Origin: Candidatus Sulfobium mesophilum
GTDB lineage: Bacteria; Nitrospirota; Thermodesulfovibrionia; Thermodesulfovibrionales; UBA6898
NCBI GenBank assembly: GCA_900302705.1
Contig: OUUY01000075.1
Coordinates: forward strand, 1-64,000
DNA length: 64,000 nt
Reading direction: 5' to 3'
The position numbers and the translations under genes were made by a program. Below the pieces are notes generated by a model. The model was not told the DNA's origin, did not search any database, and saw nothing but the letters and a program-made list of their open reading frames with translations. This document shows, in pieces, positions 48,773 through 58,288 of this stretch (position 1 is its first letter; every line of letters starts with the position of its first letter).

Positions 48773-50605
48773 CTATTTTTTGTCCCTCCGACGCAGTATC
48801 AGTATAATCGAAGCACCAGGCATCAATAAAAGCAAGATGTCCACGTGGCCGTAGTCAGTATGCCTTGTGCCTACCGAACATCCCCCTCCACCTGATGAAG
48901 GCACCGGCGTTGGAGACGGCCCGGATAATGTTGTAGCGGACGCTTCATTGGAATAATAAGGGGAATCGACCGGGACAGTATTAAAGGCCCGCACCTTATA
49001 TATATATTCAGTGGAGGGGGCAAGACCTTTGCTGTCGGTATAACTTGTGATATCAGGCCCTGTACTGTCTATTTCTTTGAAATCGCCAGTGGATGTCCTC
49101 CTCTCAATCTTATAGCCGTTCTCCCCGGTGGCGTTATCACTCCAGTTCAGAACGACCTGGGTTGAAGACAGGGCATTTGCTGTCAGTCCTGTTGGGGGCA
49201 GCAAGGCCGATATGGTCTTATATGCGTTTATCCTGCCCCCGCTTATAATAATCCCCTGAAGAGTCGGCAGTGTATCGACATACCTCATAATCATTGTTCT
49301 CAATTGTAAGGGTGTGAGATTTCCATAGTAGCCCAAGATTAATCCTGCAAGTCCGGTGACATGCGGGGCAGACATCGAAGTGCCATCGCAATATTCATAG
49401 CCGGAAAAAGGAGACCCTCCGCAAAACAGAGAATGCAGGGCAGGAGGGACAGTGCTTAGGATCGATACGCCCGGCGCCGCGACATGAACGGTATGGGCGC
49501 CGAAGTTGCTGAATGAAGCGATATGGTCATACTGATTCGTTGCCGCGACCGAAATAATGTTGGGCAGATTGTAATTTCCGGGATAGACTGGGAATGAATC
49601 GTTGTCTCTTCCAAAAGAACCAGTGCCGACGTTTCCAGCGGCAGTCACAAACAGAATACCTGCCGAACTGGCCTCAGCGATGGCGTCCCTCTCGAAATTG
49701 GAAAAAGCGTCACCTGCGAAGCTAGCATTTATTATTCTTGCGCCATTGGCAATAGCGTACTCTATGCCGGCAACCTCATCCGTGACAGTCCCGTTACCCA
49801 TGTCATCCAGGAATTTCAAAGGCATGATCTTGACATCCCATATCATCCCTGCGATACCGAGACCGTTATTACCGGCTGCGCCTATTATGCCGCTGATATG
49901 AGTTCCATGTCCTTCATCATCCATTGGATTATTATTAGAACCCACAAAATTCCATCCCCTGCAGTCTGCCGGATATCCGTTATTGTCCCTATCAGTAGTC
50001 CCTGCGCAACTTGGCTCATTGGGATTGCTCCAGATATTGGCCGCAAGATCGGGATGAGTGTAATCCACACCCGAATCGAGAATAGCAATGATGAGTCCGC
50101 CATCCCCTCTGATGATATCCCATGCAGAGGTCATGCTAATGTCAATGCCCGGGGTGACAGTATTTCTCAGCTGCCACTGCAGGGGAAAAAGTTGATCGTC
50201 AGGCAGCGTAAAACGGGCAGATCTGATGTAGTTGGGTTCTGCGTATTCGACGTCAGGGTCCTGCATGTAACGTATTATCGCATCTCTGACTGTCACCCCC
50301 TGCGGCAGTCTGACCTGCTCCGCATTCAGAATCCTGAACCTCCTGAGCACTGACGACCCCATTGCCTGATGCGCACGCAGGGATGCGCTCATACGAACAC
50401 CGTGCCTGAACTTAACAATTATGTCGCCTTCCTTATGCCGGCTGTTTTCCACACCGGCAAGTACGGATTGCAGCGACCGCCTTTGCGCCGGTGTTTCATT
50501 AGCCGCAGTTCTGCCATCGCCTGGCGACAGGGCTGCGGTATTTTCATTTCCGCAGGAAGCAAGGAATATCGCAAGAAGTACAAAAAATAATCTCTTCATC
50601 AACAT
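48773..50605 (-). CDS. S8 subtilase with FnIII domain and Gly4-Cys sorting tail
   Basis: Encodes 610 residues. The N-terminus has a lipoprotein-like signal (LASC, Cys18), then an I9-like propeptide (about 55-125), and a peptidase S8 domain with Asp177 (ILDSGVD), His233 (GHGTH) and Ser410 (GTSMSAP). A fibronectin III domain (about 475-560) follows. The C-terminus is SSGGGGCSVG (Cys576), a hydrophobic segment and RRRDKK, the plan of the JDVT/Synergist-CTERM type sorting signals in which the Cys region is cut and anchored. A CPBP membrane protease gene lies 55 bp upstream on the same strand. The protein is an extracellular or surface serine protease. Confidence 0.9.
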   Translation of the reverse strand: MLMKRLFFVLLAIFLASCGNENTAALSPGDGRTAANETPAQRRSLQSVLAGVENSRHKEGDIIVKFRHGVRMSASLRAHQAMGSSVLRRFRILNAEQVRLPQGVTVRDAIIRYMQDPDVEYAEPNYIRSARFTLPDDQLFPLQWQLRNTVTPGIDISMTSAWDIIRGDGGLIIAILDSGVDYTHPDLAANIWSNPNEPSCAGTTDRDNNGYPADCRGWNFVGSNNNPMDDEGHGTHISGIIGAAGNNGLGIAGMIWDVKIMPLKFLDDMGNGTVTDEVAGIEYAIANGARIINASFAGDAFSNFERDAIAEASSAGILFVTAAGNVGTGSFGRDNDSFPVYPGNYNLPNIISVAATNQYDHIASFSNFGAHTVHVAAPGVSILSTVPPALHSLFCGGSPFSGYEYCDGTSMSAPHVTGLAGLILGYYGNLTPLQLRTMIMRYVDTLPTLQGIIISGGRINAYKTISALLPPTGLTANALSSTQVVLNWSDNATGENGYKIERRTSTGDFKEIDSTGPDITSYTDSKGLAPSTEYIYKVRAFNTVPVDSPYYSNEASATTLSGPSPTPVPSSGGGGCSVGTRHTDYGHVDILLLLMPGASIILILRRRDKK

Positions 50606-50660
50606 CTACAGGTCTGATGCACTTTGCATTTTTTCATCTTCATCGCAGCAATAGAGTATA

Positions 50661-51197
50661 TCACATAGACGCCAGGTACAAGACGTTTGAGAGGAAATGA
50701 AAGATTGTCGGGGGGATAACGTTGGACGTACGCATATAGAGGATACCCATGACAAGTGACGGAATAAATGTCAGAGGTGCATAGACATCTCCATAGAAAA
50801 ACAAACCGGGCAGATGCGCTCCTGCAAACAGCAGACTCACCATTACAACGCTGCTGATATTGTTTCCAAATGCCTCCTGCAAAAAACCCCTGAAAAAGAC
50901 CTCCTCAGGAAAGGATACGCAAAGGAGCTGAAATATTGCTGTGCCGGCTCCCATGGCCGCGAACTTTTTCCCGTGTAAAAAAACTGCAAAAAAAGGCGCC
51001 AGGACCATAAGAGACACTATCAGGCTCATTAGAATCTGCCGCAAAGAGAAATTGATATTGATCTTTCCTTCCAAAACCAAAGGAACCGCAACCAGATAAA
51101 GGGGTATGAGATAATCAGAGAAAGGAAGATGAAGCGCATGCGCAGGGAAGACTATCCCAAGAAGTATGGCATACGCAAAAAGGGCCTTCTTTTTCAT
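50661..51197 (-). CDS. CPBP glutamic intramembrane protease, MrtJ-like
   Basis: Encodes 178 residues and about five to six membrane helices. Catalytic CPBP motifs are present: EEVFFR (Glu98, Glu99, Arg103), AGAHLP (His128) and FHFLSN (His167). The short length and the position next to a protein with a GGGGC-TM-RRR tail match the glutamic proteases assigned to C-terminal sorting systems (MrtJ, MrtS, MrtX). It would cut the tail within the membrane. No ribosome site is obvious. Alternatives are a CAAX-like or immunity-type CPBP protease. Confidence 0.8.
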   Translation of the reverse strand: MKKKALFAYAILLGIVFPAHALHLPFSDYLIPLYLVAVPLVLEGKININFSLRQILMSLIVSLMVLAPFFAVFLHGKKFAAMGAGTAIFQLLCVSFPEEVFFRGFLQEAFGNNISSVVMVSLLFAGAHLPGLFFYGDVYAPLTFIPSLVMGILYMRTSNVIPPTIFHFLSNVLYLASM

Positions 51198-51223
51198 GTC
51201 AGTTGCAGGGAATAACGGCTAAA

Positions 51224-51253
51224 TAAAGAGAGGGGCATATGCCCCTCTCTTTA
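51224..51253 (-). terminator. 30-bp perfect palindrome after the Ig-like lipoprotein gene
   Basis: Bases 51224-51253 form an uninterrupted palindrome (TAAAGAGAGGGGCAT and its reverse complement). On the minus strand the stem is followed by TTTAT, so it should end transcription of the lipoprotein genes, and perhaps work in both directions. It lies 56 bp after the stop at 51310. Confidence 0.75.
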
Positions 51254-51309
51254 AATATCTTCATTGCCTTTGGACGGAGATTAACGCCCGCTTCTGTATA
51301 TTACCTCCA

Positions 51310-52734
51310 TTAAGGGCACGTAACTGCCATGGTGAAGAGCTTTACCAAACTTCCACTTGTTCCAGCAACAGAGAACGAAGCCGTTCCAGTGGTTGTCCCA
51401 CAACTGTAAGTTAGCGTGCTGATAACACCGCTAGTGTTCGGCGTAACCACTGTTGGTGCAAAAGAACAGGACGAGCCAGTGCCTGTTGGAGCGGCAGGAC
51501 TACAGCTCAACACAACGGGGCTATTAAAACCACTTAGCGCCTTAAGCGTACATGCGCTGGTAGTAGTTGAACTGACGGTAGTCGGCGTGCAAGAAATAGT
51601 AAAATCAGGCGTAGGTGTGGGTGTAGGCGTAGGTGTGGGTGTAGGAGTAGGTGTGGGTGTAGGAGTAGGTGTAGGCGCGATAATCGATAAACTGGTCGTG
51701 GCTGATTTGCCTGCGACAGAGGCCGTTATCGTCGCGGTTTGGCTGCTGCCCGTAATGGTAGGGGCGGTAAGTGTTGCCGTTGCCACGCCCTGGTTAGTTT
51801 GGGCAAAGGGTGTTATAGTACCTTTGCTTGTTGTGAAATTGACTGCTGTGCCATCAGGGACAAAACTTCCAGCGGCAGTCGTTACCATCGCGCTGATGGT
51901 GGAATTGCCGCCCGAATTGACAGACTGAGGGTTAGCAGTAACCGTCACCTGACCGATTGTTATGGGGCCGATAAAAAGAGTTATTACGCTAGAAGCACCG
52001 GTTAAAGACTGTGCAGTCACATTAACGGGGACCGTAACATTCGTTAGTTCGCTTGGAGTAATTTTGATACGAACAAATGCCTGTCCGTCAGAGTTTGTCT
52101 TTTTTTCAAATCCATCGGGGAAAGTCACAACCGATGGGTTGTCTGTGTCAAATGTGACCGTATCACCCGCATCAGGGAACCCCGATCCATTCAAAACAGT
52201 CGCTCTGACGATAGCTTCGTCGTGAGGAGCGGCAGGGTCGAAGAAGTTGAAATCGCTGGGATCGTTGAAACTGTTGTCGTTATTATTGTCGACCGCAAGA
52301 TTCAAAGTGAAACCGCTAGTAAGGTCGGAGACCGTAAAGAAGACGATTTTTTTGTCCCTCAGCTTTCCTCCTCCCGAATTCACTTCTACCTGCACGTTGG
52401 CAACGCCTTCGACTGCCGAAAAAATCGAGACTGTCGCGAATCCCAGAGTATCGGTCACGGCCTGGTTGGAACTGAGCTCGCCGATGGAGGAGAGGTTTGT
52501 AAAGGCAACCGGCACGTTAGGCACAGCCCTGCCGTTTCCGTCAAGGACCTTAGCTTTCAGATTGATAGTTGAATTCGTCTGGGCTGTCTGCTGAACTGCC
52601 TGTAACTGTACGATGGAAGGCTGGCCGGCGCCAACGCCAACCGGTTCGCTCGACTTACCCGCGCCGTCGCCACAGTAGGCCAGCAAAGCCAGGGCCATTA
52701 AAAGTGCTATCGGGAATAAAATCTTTCTTATCAT
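51310..52734 (-). CDS. Ig-like repeat lipoprotein with Thr-Pro linker
   Basis: Encodes 474 residues from the ATG at 52734, behind GGAGGCGAA; a GTG at 52752 would place the ribosome site inside the gene. Signal peptide with lipobox LAYC. Two to three bacterial Ig-like (invasin/Big_1-type) domains at about 40-335 (NSTINLKAKVLDGNGRAVPNVPV), then a (Thr-Pro)n stretch of about 22 residues and a final beta domain of about 95 residues with paired cysteines. It should be an outer-surface or periplasmic adhesion or structural protein. It follows a smaller lipoprotein gene by 8 bp and lies downstream of pilQ. Confidence 0.8.
   Translation of the reverse strand: MIRKILFPIALLMALALLAYCGDGAGKSSEPVGVGAGQPSIVQLQAVQQTAQTNSTINLKAKVLDGNGRAVPNVPVAFTNLSSIGELSSNQAVTDTLGFATVSIFSAVEGVANVQVEVNSGGGKLRDKKIVFFTVSDLTSGFTLNLAVDNNNDNSFNDPSDFNFFDPAAPHDEAIVRATVLNGSGFPDAGDTVTFDTDNPSVVTFPDGFEKKTNSDGQAFVRIKITPSELTNVTVPVNVTAQSLTGASSVITLFIGPITIGQVTVTANPQSVNSGGNSTISAMVTTAAGSFVPDGTAVNFTTSKGTITPFAQTNQGVATATLTAPTITGSSQTATITASVAGKSATTSLSIIAPTPTPTPTPTPTPTPTPTPTPTPDFTISCTPTTVSSTTTSACTLKALSGFNSPVVLSCSPAAPTGTGSSCSFAPTVVTPNTSGVISTLTYSCGTTTGTASFSVAGTSGSLVKLFTMAVTCP
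51610..51676 (-). repeat. hexanucleotide repeat encoding (Thr-Pro)n
   Basis: Imperfect 6-bp units (GTAGGT/GTGGGT/GTAGGC variants on the plus strand) repeat about 11 times, with an 18-bp higher-order pattern. Slippage would change linker length in steps of two residues without breaking the frame. It is not a CRISPR array. Confidence 0.85.
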
Positions 52735-52742
52735 TTCGCCTC

Positions 52743-53294
52743 CTACGGACAACTGAAATTAGCCAGCCAAATGTCCACCTCGGCGTGAAAACCACCCGTC
52801 TTCCCGAAGGACGACATGTATCTACAGTTATAGGCCGCAACATAGTGGGTAGGTATTTCCGCCGGCGTGAAAACCCCGCCGTTAACATCATTAAACCATT
52901 TCACCTTTCTCGATTGGTCAATGAGCGTAACATCGCAAGAAGTCGATCCATTGACCAATGGGCAGTTCGGAAAAATTGTCAGCGTCTCTATTATCGGTGC
53001 ACCGGGGTCTTCGTTGGCTTTCTTATAAGTAATCGTACATTCCTCAATGCTGGCCCCGTTAAACGGGTCATCAGTCGAACCGGAGACAAGTGGCGCCGCA
53101 CTGACATTTAATGTTGCGCTTTCCCTACCACCACATACATCAATATCCGGGCTGCCAATAGTCAGCGTCGCGGATTGGATAACTATCCCTGTATTATCAC
53201 TTCCGGAGGACCCGGGGGCACCCACCCCCCCGCCGCACCCGGAAAAAATAAATGCGGATAAAAGCATCAACGCAATAATAATTAGTCTCCTCAT
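52743..53294 (-). CDS. lipoprotein of unknown function
   Basis: Encodes 183 residues with a signal peptide and lipobox FSGC, followed by a Gly/Ser-rich spacer. The mature part is beta-rich with about seven cysteines (DVCGG, EECTI, NCPL, SCDV, NCRY, FSCP), probably disulfide-bonded. I know no family. A strong AAGGAGG site precedes the ATG. It lies 59 bp after pilQ and 8 bp before the Ig-like lipoprotein, so it may be part of a pil-linked transcript. Confidence 0.7.
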   Translation of the reverse strand: MRRLIIIALMLLSAFIFSGCGGGVGAPGSSGSDNTGIVIQSATLTIGSPDIDVCGGRESATLNVSAAPLVSGSTDDPFNGASIEECTITYKKANEDPGAPIIETLTIFPNCPLVNGSTSCDVTLIDQSRKVKWFNDVNGGVFTPAEIPTHYVAAYNCRYMSSFGKTGGFHAEVDIWLANFSCP

Positions 53295-53353
53295 AATGCC
53301 TCCTTAAGCTCCAATTCCATATAAAAAATCTTTTTCACGTCCCCGACCCATGT

Positions 53354-55579
53354 TTACAGCGGTTGAGACACAATTGTCGGTGTGATAAAAATAAGTAGTT
53401 CCTTGATATCGTGTGTACGGTTTCTTGTCTTAAAGAGCCAACCCAAGCCCGGTATCTTGCTAAGCGCAGGCACACCATCACTGCTCTCAGAATCGTCCAA
53501 CCTGTAAATGCCCCCTATGACAAGCGTCTCTCCGTTTTTCACGAGGGCCTGAGTCTTCAGGCTCTTGGTATTGACGACTGCATTAGCACCCGCCGTACCA
53601 GGCTGAAGGCTGTTGTCGCTGGCATTTACCTTCAACTGTATAAACCCATCAGGCGTAATCTTTGGAGTGACATCGAGGCTAAGAGTTGCGGTCTGCGACT
53701 GGGTCTGGGTGCCTGCCTGGCTTACCGTAGGGATGTAAAATGTAGTACCCTGCTGGATATTTGCGGCCTCGTTGTCCATTGTCAGGATCTTCGGGTTTGA
53801 CAATGTTTTAGTCTGCCCGATGGATTCAAGCGCCGACAGCGACAGGTTGACACTGAGCGTGTTTGCATGCCCAAATGTCAGATTCATGGTGCCTCCGGGA
53901 TTTGTTGTGGCGGGGCCGGCGGCCACCGTAGGCGTATTGACTGAGAAGTTACCTCCGACGTTATTAGGGAAAGCCTGCGATGAAAAAGAACCTCCCCACC
54001 TTATCCCAAGATTTTCAGCGTAGGTCGTACCCACCTCAACAAGCTTTGCTTCTATCAGGACCTGCGGCTTCGAAACATCCATAATCTTCACAAGCTCTTT
54101 TATCTTATCTATGCTAGTCTGCGTGTCTTTAATTATCAGGGTGTTCATTCTGCTATCAATTGTAAAACTGCCCCTTGAACTAAACAGTTTCGCACTATTG
54201 ATCGCCGACTGGATTTCCGCCGCAGAAGCGTAATTGATCCGCACCACTTCTTGGACAAGGGGCTCGTTTTCCTGCTGTGCCTTCTCCATCTTAAACTGGT
54301 CTTGCGCCAGCTTCTCAAACACCGAGGTCGGTGCCACATATAGAATGTTCCGCTCGACGCGGTACGCAAGATTGCTTTGCCGTGCGACGATGTCTAGAGC
54401 CTGGTCCCAGGGAACATTCATGAGCTTGATAGTGATCTTACCCTTCACACCAGGGTCGAGTACAAGGTTATAATTGTTCACGTCTGCCAAAAGCCTGAAT
54501 ATAGGGCCTACATCAGCATCCTGAAAATCGAGTGATATTCTTTTCCCTTTAAGTTCTTCAGGCCTGGACTCCTGCACTGCAGGCGGCTGAGCCTCTTTTG
54601 GCAGTTGCTCATTTGCAATCGTATCTTTATGGACAGCCTTGGATTTCTTACGGGCTTTCGGCGCAACCTGGGCAATCTGCGATTCACCGGCTTTCAATGA
54701 AATCTCTATAGTATTCCCGGCAGCTGTAACATCAAAAGTTGTTTTTTCTTTCAGATCAAGTACAAGTCTCACCTTCCCTTTGTGTTTCCCTGCCCTGATC
54801 CCCTTCAAAGGCGGCATAACAGATGAAGGAAGTGTAGCGTGCATCGAAACTCCGGGTATGTCGATCACTATTTTCCCATGCACGGGAAAGACATCAGGCT
54901 TCATTGCCCCGTCACCTGCTATCAGAACCTTGAGTTCCCCGGCAGACTTTTTCAGCTCGATGCGGTCAATCGAAGTGGCATTTCCCGCTGCAGCAGCTGC
55001 AGTATCAGCATGCTTTATTTCAGGCGTTTCAGTCTCCATTGCCGCCCCAGTCCCGGCGGACTTCCCTTCGGCTACAGTGTTTGACGTGCTGGCACTAACA
55101 GATACCCCCGGTGCTTCTTTGGCCTCAACAGTTTCTTCTGTTTTATCCTGCTTGAGGGCAAGCGGCTCTTCTGGTTTGGTCAAAAGAGTCAGGGTATTGT
55201 CTTTATAGAGCGGCACGACTGCGGAAGGGCTCTGAAGTAAGATATCCAGTCTTACTGACGGCCGAGAACCGTCAATTTGCTGGGGATATATTTCAGAAAT
55301 GCCTGCCCTGTCCCAAACGATCTTGTTTTTAAAATTACCCAGTCGCATCTCCGGAATCTCTATGGTAACCTTGTAAGGATCATTCCCCGTATAAAGTGTA
55401 TAAGTAAAATTCCTGCTTCCGACGATTGAGATGCCATTTTCCTGCTGCCTGATATCTGCAAGGACCGGAAGATCATCGGCCTGAGCGATCTCCGCGGTTC
55501 TCGCCTGCGTCGCACAGCCAAGAAACAATGTCAATAAAAGCAATGATAAGAAAAATTTTGATATCGGATATTTTTTCAT
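53354..55579 (-). CDS. pilQ: type IV pilus secretin PilQ
   Basis: Encodes 741 residues. Lipobox FLGC at the signal peptide. Two AMIN domains (about 35-120 and 200-300) bind peptidoglycan, an STN/N0 domain with KRISLDFQDADVGPIFRLLADV follows, then an N1 domain and the secretin barrel with the VPALSKIPGLGWLFKTR signature near the C-terminus. It forms the outer-membrane pore for the pilus. It shares a base with pilP and ends the pilMNOPQ run. Confidence 0.95.
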   Translation of the reverse strand: MKKYPISKFFLSLLLLTLFLGCATQARTAEIAQADDLPVLADIRQQENGISIVGSRNFTYTLYTGNDPYKVTIEIPEMRLGNFKNKIVWDRAGISEIYPQQIDGSRPSVRLDILLQSPSAVVPLYKDNTLTLLTKPEEPLALKQDKTEETVEAKEAPGVSVSASTSNTVAEGKSAGTGAAMETETPEIKHADTAAAAAGNATSIDRIELKKSAGELKVLIAGDGAMKPDVFPVHGKIVIDIPGVSMHATLPSSVMPPLKGIRAGKHKGKVRLVLDLKEKTTFDVTAAGNTIEISLKAGESQIAQVAPKARKKSKAVHKDTIANEQLPKEAQPPAVQESRPEELKGKRISLDFQDADVGPIFRLLADVNNYNLVLDPGVKGKITIKLMNVPWDQALDIVARQSNLAYRVERNILYVAPTSVFEKLAQDQFKMEKAQQENEPLVQEVVRINYASAAEIQSAINSAKLFSSRGSFTIDSRMNTLIIKDTQTSIDKIKELVKIMDVSKPQVLIEAKLVEVGTTYAENLGIRWGGSFSSQAFPNNVGGNFSVNTPTVAAGPATTNPGGTMNLTFGHANTLSVNLSLSALESIGQTKTLSNPKILTMDNEAANIQQGTTFYIPTVSQAGTQTQSQTATLSLDVTPKITPDGFIQLKVNASDNSLQPGTAGANAVVNTKSLKTQALVKNGETLVIGGIYRLDDSESSDGVPALSKIPGLGWLFKTRNRTHDIKELLIFITPTIVSQPL

Positions 55580-56103
55580 TATTCCCCCTCCTTGCGGAGT
55601 TTCAATATTGTCTCTTTCGTCTTAGGCTGCCCCTTGTAGTCCTTCACATGCTCCCTGATAAGCACCTTATCTTTTGTAATATCCTCAACCTTCCCTCCGT
55701 ACAGCCCGACTGTCGTCCCTTTTCTGATCGTATAAGATTTATTGTCGGGGAGCATGATAAGGGCATAATACTGTCTGTTGTCCCACAAAATAGCAACCAG
55801 CTTTATTTCGTCAACGTCGAAGTCCTCAATTGGCTTTCTACCCGCCACCCTTTTGGGCTTCTCCTTGCTTATCTGCACCAATGACATGAAAGGGTCCCTC
55901 CTGCCCTTCTGTTCATAGACATACACTTCTTTTTCCGCTTTCAGCTCCTCCTTCGTCAAAGGAGGAGGAAGGGAAACCGCTGCTTTAGGCTGCGGAGCAG
56001 CAGATTTGGAAGGTGACGCCTTTTCTTTACATCCGGCAAATACAAGTATTGTAATCCCAATGAAAATTGCGAGTGCCCTCTTTATAAAGGTAATTATTGT
56101 CAT
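55579..56103 (-). CDS. pilP: type IV pilus lipoprotein PilP
   Basis: Encodes 174 residues with lipobox VFAGC, a disordered Lys/Ala/Pro-rich segment and the PilP beta-sandwich with GRRDPFMSLV and VDEIKLVAILW. It bridges PilNO and PilQ in the periplasm. It abuts pilO (next base) and overlaps pilQ. Confidence 0.93.
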   Translation of the reverse strand: MTIITFIKRALAIFIGITILVFAGCKEKASPSKSAAPQPKAAVSLPPPLTKEELKAEKEVYVYEQKGRRDPFMSLVQISKEKPKRVAGRKPIEDFDVDEIKLVAILWDNRQYYALIMLPDNKSYTIRKGTTVGLYGGKVEDITKDKVLIREHVKDYKGQPKTKETILKLRKEGE

Positions 56104-56700
56104 TTATTTTTTCTTCTCCTTCTTGTCTTCCTCAGTTACCGATGAAAAAGTGGTAGCCGTGAAGCTGATCTGAAGGAGGGCCCTGCTTTTGCTTATCTGC
56201 GGAGAAGCCATCTTTATATCTGTAATATTGACTATTCTGTTAAGCCTTGTCAGGCTGCTTAAAAATGCCGCAAAATCGTGATATGTGCCACTCGCTGAAA
56301 CAGCAACCGGTATTTCAGACACGATTCCGCTCGAGTGCATCTTCTTTGCACCCGGCCTCCAGGATTTTACTTCGAGACCCGCTGCGACCGATAGGTCAGA
56401 GATCTGTTTGAGCAGACTCGAAATCTCTTTTTCTTCGGGAAGTTGCTCCTTTAATTCGTTTAATCTGATGAGTAATTTTTCGTTTTCCTGCTTCAGAGTT
56501 TCGAGTTTGGCCGCCTTGGCCTGATCGGTTGCTATTTTATTGTTCTGCTGGTCGATCTGCGCATCCAGTTTTTTGATCTCATTCTGCTTAGGCGATATCA
56601 ACAAATATCCTCCCGCAATAAATATTATCACGGCAGGAAGCACCGCTATGATCACCTTTACATAAATCGGTAAATTCTTGACATCCAGTTTAACTGCCAT
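56104..56700 (-). CDS. pilO: type IV pilus assembly protein PilO
   Basis: Encodes 198 residues with a short cytoplasmic start (DVKNLPIYVKV), one membrane helix (about 14-33), a long coiled coil and a ferredoxin-like periplasmic domain (HDFAAFLSSLTRLNRIVNI). It pairs with PilN. It shares a base with pilN. Confidence 0.93.
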   Translation of the reverse strand: MAVKLDVKNLPIYVKVIIAVLPAVIIFIAGGYLLISPKQNEIKKLDAQIDQQNNKIATDQAKAAKLETLKQENEKLLIRLNELKEQLPEEKEISSLLKQISDLSVAAGLEVKSWRPGAKKMHSSGIVSEIPVAVSASGTYHDFAAFLSSLTRLNRIVNITDIKMASPQISKSRALLQISFTATTFSSVTEEDKKEKKK

Positions 56701-57239
56701 CAGGATTTCACCTTGCAGCTTATTCTAAAGTTATATACGGAAAAACCCGATACATTAGCCTGAACGGATTCCTGCAGATACACGTCTGTCAATAACTTAG
56801 ACCCTTTAAGACTGTTAACGAAATTGACGACGTCTGTATTATTGAATCCTGTACACGCTAATGTTATACCGCCGCCCGTTATATCCAAAGAATTGAGCCA
56901 TACGCCATCGGACAAAAGTCTGCTTATCTCATCAAGTAATTTGACAGGCAACGCTTTGTTCTTGCCAAGTTCTTCTATAATCCCCTTGCGTTTTTTGAAA
57001 TCTGCGTTGCGTTTTTCATAATCATCAACTGCCTTGATCTTCTGCGCCAGCTCTGCAAGCCTTTTCTCATTTTCGGCCACCTGCGCCTTTTTTGCGTTTA
57101 TCCGCCCCTGAAAAAAGAAGTTCAGGTAGATCATCACCGCAACCGCAGCGAAAGCAATGCCGATGGTGGCAATTAGAAAAGTCGGTAAAGGCTTTGCCTT
57201 TTTCCTCTTCTTTGAAGGAATAAGATTGACTTTTATCAT
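56700..57239 (-). CDS. pilN: type IV pilus assembly protein PilN
   Basis: Encodes 179 residues. The PilM-binding start MIKVNLIPSKKRK is typical, followed by one membrane helix (about 20-42), a coiled coil and a ferredoxin-like domain. It links cytoplasmic PilM to PilO. It overlaps pilM by 4 nt. Confidence 0.94.
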   Translation of the reverse strand: MIKVNLIPSKKRKKAKPLPTFLIATIGIAFAAVAVMIYLNFFFQGRINAKKAQVAENEKRLAELAQKIKAVDDYEKRNADFKKRKGIIEELGKNKALPVKLLDEISRLLSDGVWLNSLDITGGGITLACTGFNNTDVVNFVNSLKGSKLLTDVYLQESVQANVSGFSVYNFRISCKVKS

Positions 57240-58288
57240 CGGTCACCCAGCCTTCTTAAGGCCAGTCCGACTGCAACAGCCATTAACGGGGCGATTTCTT
57301 CTATATTGATCCCCTCGAATTTCCTGGGTATCTTTATGTTCCGGAATGGTTCAGCTACCCTTGTCTCGATGCCCGTCTTCTCCGCAATCATGGATGAAAA
57401 ATTACTAAGAAGAGCGCAGCCTCCGCTGAATATCACCTCAGCGATTTCCTCATGGGTCGTTGTGCTCCTGTAATAATCAAAAGACCTGATGATCTCGCCA
57501 AGTATCTCCTCGGATGCCGATTCTATAACAGCACCAGCATCTTCGTGAGAAATATTCTCTACCGTTTCGCCTCTCTTGAGTTTTTCGGCAATTTCATAGG
57601 TAATGTTAAATTCCCTCTGGAGTGCTTCCGTATGCAGGTTGCTTCCAAGGGAGCTATCCCTTGTGAAAACAGATATGCCCCCCTTTAGGATGCTCATATT
57701 GATAGTGCTGGCACCGATATTTAGCAATGCAACATTTTTCCCGGGTTCTATCTCATAATTGATGCCGTACATATTTTCAAGGGCAAATGCGTCAATGTCA
57801 ACTATGATCGGATTGAGGCCAGCTTCCTTGATTACCGATATATACTCGTTGATAATGTCTTTCTTAACGGCCACGAGGATCACGTCCATCTGACCAGGTT
57901 CCTCTTTCGGCCCGATTATCTGAAAATCGAGATTAACATCCTCAATATCGAACGGGACATACTGTTCGGCTTCGAATTTTATCGATTCTGAAAGGTCCTC
58001 CTCAGACATCTCCGGAAGAGAGATCCTCTTGATGATTACCGAGGAATGCCCGGAAATAGATATAACAGCATCCTTTGTCTTTATTCCGGCCTTTCCAATC
58101 ATGTCTTTTATAGAATCTACGAGCCTGATAGAATCTATGATTGAGCCGTCGACTATTAATTCCGGAGGAAGAGGGTAGAGATTAAATAGGTCGAGTTCAT
58201 AGCCACCTTTCGATTCATTCAGCTTTATCGTCTTGATATAGCTGGATCCGAGGTCTAAGCCTAATGAACCCTTCCCTTTGAAAAGCAT
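57236..58288 (-). CDS. pilM: type IV pilus actin-like ATPase PilM
   Basis: Encodes 350 residues with an actin/FtsA-like fold: GLDLGSSYIKTIKL phosphate loop, the KDAVISISGHSSVIIKR strand, VDIDAFALEN and NIGASTINMSILKGG. It scaffolds the inner-membrane part of the pilus machine. It is first in the pilMNOPQ operon. No ribosome site lies before the ATG; a promoter -10 ends 6 nt upstream. Confidence 0.95.
   Translation of the reverse strand: MLFKGKGSLGLDLGSSYIKTIKLNESKGGYELDLFNLYPLPPELIVDGSIIDSIRLVDSIKDMIGKAGIKTKDAVISISGHSSVIIKRISLPEMSEEDLSESIKFEAEQYVPFDIEDVNLDFQIIGPKEEPGQMDVILVAVKKDIINEYISVIKEAGLNPIIVDIDAFALENMYGINYEIEPGKNVALLNIGASTINMSILKGGISVFTRDSSLGSNLHTEALQREFNITYEIAEKLKRGETVENISHEDAGAVIESASEEILGEIIRSFDYYRSTTTHEEIAEVIFSGGCALLSNFSSMIAEKTGIETRVAEPFRNIKIPRKFEGINIEEIAPLMAVAVGLALRRLGDR

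Follow-up and report, generated by a model that had tools for sequence, protein, structure and literature searches.

The question raised by this locus is whether a subtilase that ends in a cysteine, a hydrophobic segment and a basic stretch forms a sorting pair with the short CPBP protease encoded beside it. Both genes lie in the window, that is, the whole stretch of 64,000 nucleotides of Candidatus Sulfobium mesophilum DNA that was analyzed. A first-pass annotation had called them a likely sorting pair, and this reading is upheld here, since the pairing of the genes, their genome-wide co-occurrence, the modularity of the tail and the family ranking of the CPBP protein all agree and indicate, with good confidence, that enzyme and substrate form a dedicated sorting pair resembling the myxosortase systems.

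Organization of the locus

The open reading frames and residues were re-derived and gave the following features.

48773..50605, minus strand: subtilase (S8), 610 aa, proposed substrate (ORF and Pfam)
50552..50605, minus strand: signal peptide with lipobox LASC, Cys18 (sequence)
50231..50464, minus strand: Fervidolysin-type prodomain, residues 48-125 (PF22148, 51 bits)
49277..50098, minus strand: Peptidase S8 domain, residues 170-443, catalytic Asp177/His233/Ser410 (PF00082, 198 bits)
48974..49198, minus strand: FN3 domain, residues 470-544 (PF00041, 32 bits)
48776..48892, minus strand: candidate C-terminal sorting tail GGGGC(576)SVG, hydrophobic helix, RRRDKK, residues 572-610 (tail profile E 7e-14; JDVT-CTERM 20.8 bits)
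50661..51197, minus strand: CPBP (Rce1-like) intramembrane glutamic protease, 178 aa, proposed sorting enzyme (PF02517, 63.4 bits, cut-off 22.4)
50889..50906, minus strand: CPBP motif 1, Glu98-Glu99...Arg103 (invariant in 45 orthologues)
50814..50816, minus strand: CPBP His128 (invariant in 45 orthologues)
50685..50699, minus strand: CPBP motif His167...Asn171 (invariant in 45 orthologues)

By sequence and Pfam the subtilase is laid out as lipobox signal, Fervidolysin-type prodomain, S8 domain, FN3 domain, glycine linker and cysteine tail. Its end is as first described, with four glycines and Cys576, a hydrophobic stretch starting at about residue 588 and RRRDKK at the C-terminus; the lipobox is present, and the CPBP gene, with the length and the Glu, Arg and His residues noted earlier, lies 55 bp upstream on the same strand. 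On the other side of the CPBP gene a mere 112 bp (window 51198-51309) separate it from the gene of an Ig-like lipoprotein. Two putative lipoproteins (window 51310-58288) separate the pair from the pilMNOPQ genes; one of them has Big_1/invasin domains together with a long Thr-Pro repeat.

The CPBP protease

The genome comprises 2.77 Mb in 151 contigs and is 83.8% complete. Its one PF02517 match is the CPBP gene of the window, a statement which, like that on the single tail below, is limited by the missing ~16% of the genome. Thirteen columns are invariant across the 45 orthologues, including E98, E99, R103, H128, H167 and N171, and all the catalytic residues are kept. The AlphaFold2 model of the protein (mean pLDDT 96.5) has its best PDB fold match in MmRce1 (4cad; prob 1.00, E 2e-3, TM-score 0.54 to the query), which is alike in CPBP fold and glutamate active site but targets prenylated CAAX C-termini.

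Neither partner is named in NCBIfam 20.0. The top five matches of the CPBP protein are MrtS, Mrt_core, MrtP, MrtJ and MrtC, and ABC_perm_CPBP and other CPBP families rank lower, so a better fit to non-sorting families was looked for and not found. The comparison with the MrtJ and MrtS models that had been put forward as a check places MrtS first, but no family model, of enzyme or of tail, reaches its cut-off: the protein scores 66.4 bits for MrtS (NF040589, cut-off 130), 43.3 for MrtJ (NF033192, cut-off 75), 47.1 for Mrt_core (NF040914, cut-off 100) and 25.3 for MrtX (cut-off 180). Judged by best E-values, the 45 orthologues also fit MrtS (3.5e-22) better than MrtJ (1e-13) and are below both cut-offs. 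In a tree which took in no reference MrtX, MrtC or MrtS proteins, the CPBP proteins of the order and of the same class group together, except for two Chlamydia long branches, and away from the Dadabacteria relatives and the MrtJ proteins of family f29.

The C-terminal tail and known sorting systems

A genome search for other proteins with the same tail, proposed earlier as a check, was run with a tail profile, and in the entire 2.77 Mb (~84% complete) the subtilase alone was matched. A second genomic candidate, on C42, scored a weak 12.3 bits for JDVT-CTERM and was taken as noise. Tails were called by profile, a plain regular expression for cysteine, transmembrane segment and basic end having been dropped after false matches on antisense frames. 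Profile A3 extends into the FN3/Gly region, and matches over positions 1-30 alone were not scored as tails, which excluded the partial matches in genomes G147, G071, G131, G059, G332 and G355. Across 57 tails Gly-Cys is invariant. The tail consensus reads GGGGGCSIGxRQNxxTAxAD.

CPBP sorting enzymes were discovered only recently, and to our knowledge MrtX is the sole case shown experimentally; MrtJ and other Cys-type sorting signals are reportedly described in a 2024 paper. The pair could be an ordinary MrtJ/JDVT-CTERM or MrtS/Synerg-CTERM system lying just under the curated cut-offs, and so already known. It has the same parts and layout as MrtJ/JDVT-CTERM (NF033192/NF033191; described in PMC11980579), namely a short CPBP protease and one target encoded by two neighbouring genes, the target having a tail with an invariant cysteine ahead of a helix and a basic end, and the 20.8 bits of the window tail come near the JDVT-CTERM cut-off of 27. 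In two genomes of f29, another family of the phylum, JDVT-CTERM above cut-off (32.4 and 41.0 bits) is moreover found on a subtilase of this type, which adjoins an MrtJ gene also above cut-off (102.8 and 104 bits). However, the JDVT-CTERM cut-off (about E 5e-6) is reached by none of the 57 tails and a match at E 0.1 by 10 of them, the orthologues are nearer to MrtS than to MrtJ, and the MrtJ proteins of genomes G427 and G330 are distant in the tree, on a branch 2.9 long. The MrtS/Synerg-CTERM system (NF040589/TIGR04564) is alike in providing the top enzyme model, but Synerg-CTERM matches a single tail of the 57, and that weakly. We regard this alternative as unlikely. Because enzyme and tail are both under every NCBIfam cut-off, the pair is placed, on the evidence of its sequences, with CPBP C-terminal sorting systems of the myxosortase/MrtJ type, as a variant that has not been catalogued.

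The pair shares a CPBP enzyme and a Cys-TM-Arg tail with MrtX/MYXO-CTERM, for which cleavage has been shown by experiment in Myxococcus xanthus (PMC11980579). It differs in the enzyme score, in a Gly-rich tail with a single cysteine, which the MYXO-CTERM model does not match in the window, and in having one to three targets per genome against dozens in Myxococcus. In the rhombosortase/GlyGly-CTERM system a secreted serine protease likewise has a Gly-rich tail that includes a helix and ends in basic residues, and it is described as a type II secretion effector retained at the cell surface (PMC6219818), but the processing enzyme there is a rhomboid serine protease instead of a CPBP protein.

The tail on other proteins

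The tail behaves as a module. In genus g9 the same tail ends four non-subtilase proteins, and in both of those scanned a choice-of-anchor U domain of NCBIfam stands just ahead of it (95 and 99 bits, cut-off 32). In the CPBP-less genome G147 a homologous subtilase built of the same three domains (prodomain, S8, FN3) ends instead in CFI-box-CTERM (L219:625-3396; 107 bits, cut-off 40), and this natural swap with the sorting tail suggests that CFI-box-CTERM may be an anchoring signal too. The S8 proteins of three other CPBP-less genomes (G146, G148 and G169) are all more distant and none has the tail. A Dadabacteria protein (L143:9987-11288) ends in GGCAISGTRN, a transmembrane segment and KRR; it has no NCBIfam match, and an MrtP-like CPBP gene is located about 3.7 kb away.

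Proposed mechanism and anchoring

In the sorting-pair reading the N-terminal lipoprotein signal would export the subtilase, and the C-terminal helix would halt it in the inner membrane with RRRDKK on the cytoplasmic side. The CPBP protease would recognise the GGGGC-SVG/SIG motif, cut at or just after Cys576 and remove the helix. If MrtX is a guide, Cys576 would probably be lipidated by a general enzyme, and with this C-terminal lipid anchor the subtilase would move to the cell surface, probably via type II secretion, which MrtX targets use for their export. The secretin gene gspD is present in the window's genome (529.9 bits, cut-off 351); type II secretion was judged by GspD alone, T2SSK (PF03934) also matching Bacillus and other controls.

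Counting against this reading is the lipobox, which would offer a second and independent anchor. It is found before the prodomain in 46 of the 48 full-length tailed subtilases and hence is not incidental. The first-pass annotation had supposed that the enzyme may be tethered at both ends, and this idea can be refined. Subtilase prodomains are normally removed at maturation, and as Cys18 precedes the prodomain, that side would be cut off with it and an N-terminal lipid would no longer tether the mature form; the C-terminal anchor, not Cys18, may be what holds the mature protease on the cell. A possible though somewhat doubtful extension is an exchange of anchors during maturation, in which the N-terminal lipid would hold the precursor and remain on the prodomain after self-cleavage, and the CPBP-processed C-terminal cysteine would hold the mature, active protease. 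The arrangement in family f29 is consistent with such an exchange, being split into a lipobox-prodomain gene and a JDVT-tailed subtilase. There the three-gene unit (L229:1065-3780 and L239:412-3148) consists of the small lipobox-prodomain gene, the subtilase and then MrtJ; the small gene overlaps the subtilase gene in another frame, and the subtilase brings a prodomain of its own, a signal peptide that looks ordinary by eye, and the JDVT tail. The separately encoded prodomain may serve as an inhibitor.

The CPBP protease could instead act as a sheddase, its cut serving not to anchor the subtilase but to release it to the medium or free one of its ends. The N-terminal lipobox alone could anchor the precursor, and in Myxococcus, where C-terminal cleavage of TraA requires MrtX, TraA and MXAN_4924 are partly found in the medium (PMC11980579). 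The Cys residues are required there, lipidation being proposed and still unproven for the MrtX pathway (PMC11980579). The invariant Gly-Cys of the tails studied here, however, is what anchoring by a lipid after cleavage would call for, and it has no obvious role in release. With the choice-of-anchor U domain on other users of the tail also speaking against it, release is rather improbable.

Linkage and co-occurrence among relatives

Named relatives put the window in Nitrospirota, within or near the order Thermodesulfovibrionales. Of the 177 genomes of the order, 48 have a CPBP orthologue, always as one copy. In this set, with profile A1, both CPBP and tail are present in 39 genomes, CPBP only in 9, tail only in 4 and neither in 125 (Fisher p 6e-26); across 396 genomes sampled from the phylum, with profile A3, the counts are 40, 3, 5 and 348 (Fisher p 1e-45). 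These genomes are not phylogenetically independent, and most of the tails that went into the profiles had initially been spotted next to CPBP genes. Better evidence than the Fisher counts comes from joint absence among members of one genus, as in g10, where three genomes have both and five have neither.

In most of the neighbourhoods fetched a tailed subtilase adjoins the CPBP gene, usually 15-250 bp off. In the window's family and in f13 it shares the strand of the CPBP gene and lies upstream or downstream of it; in f10 and f5 it is on the opposite strand. In genus g9, and in f9 and f6, the tailed proteins are mostly away from the CPBP gene. Three genomes of the window's genus have two tailed subtilases flanking CPBP, of which the window retains the downstream one only.

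CPBP genes without a recognised tail, in 3 to 9 genomes depending on set and profile, count against the pair. Among the exceptions, the tailed subtilase of G159 runs past the contig end (L199) exactly at the expected CPBP position, G153 and G010 are 80-82% complete, and G052 has a partial tail match alone, at a contig edge; G008, G037 and the f23 tails lacking CPBP have no such account. The FN3 subtilases of f23 (L226 and L227 in genomes G204 and G195; also G217) end in GGGGCGVIDxNKN, a transmembrane segment and RR, with no matching CPBP found, and a different enzyme may serve these tails.

That the CPBP gene is an unrelated neighbour and the tail a plain membrane anchor is very improbable: CPBP proteins do have many roles, and some relatives retain the flanking pil and aro genes, so that linkage could be synteny, but the linkage persists across varied gene orders and orientations, the co-occurrence persists where the two genes occupy different contigs, and tail and CPBP are absent together.

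Significance

The sorting pair, if correctly read, adds a conserved CPBP sorting system, found in Nitrospirota, whose substrates number one to three per genome. Being simpler than Myxococcus with its dozens of targets, it would be easier for studying the cleavage, the role of the cysteine and the lipid-transfer step.
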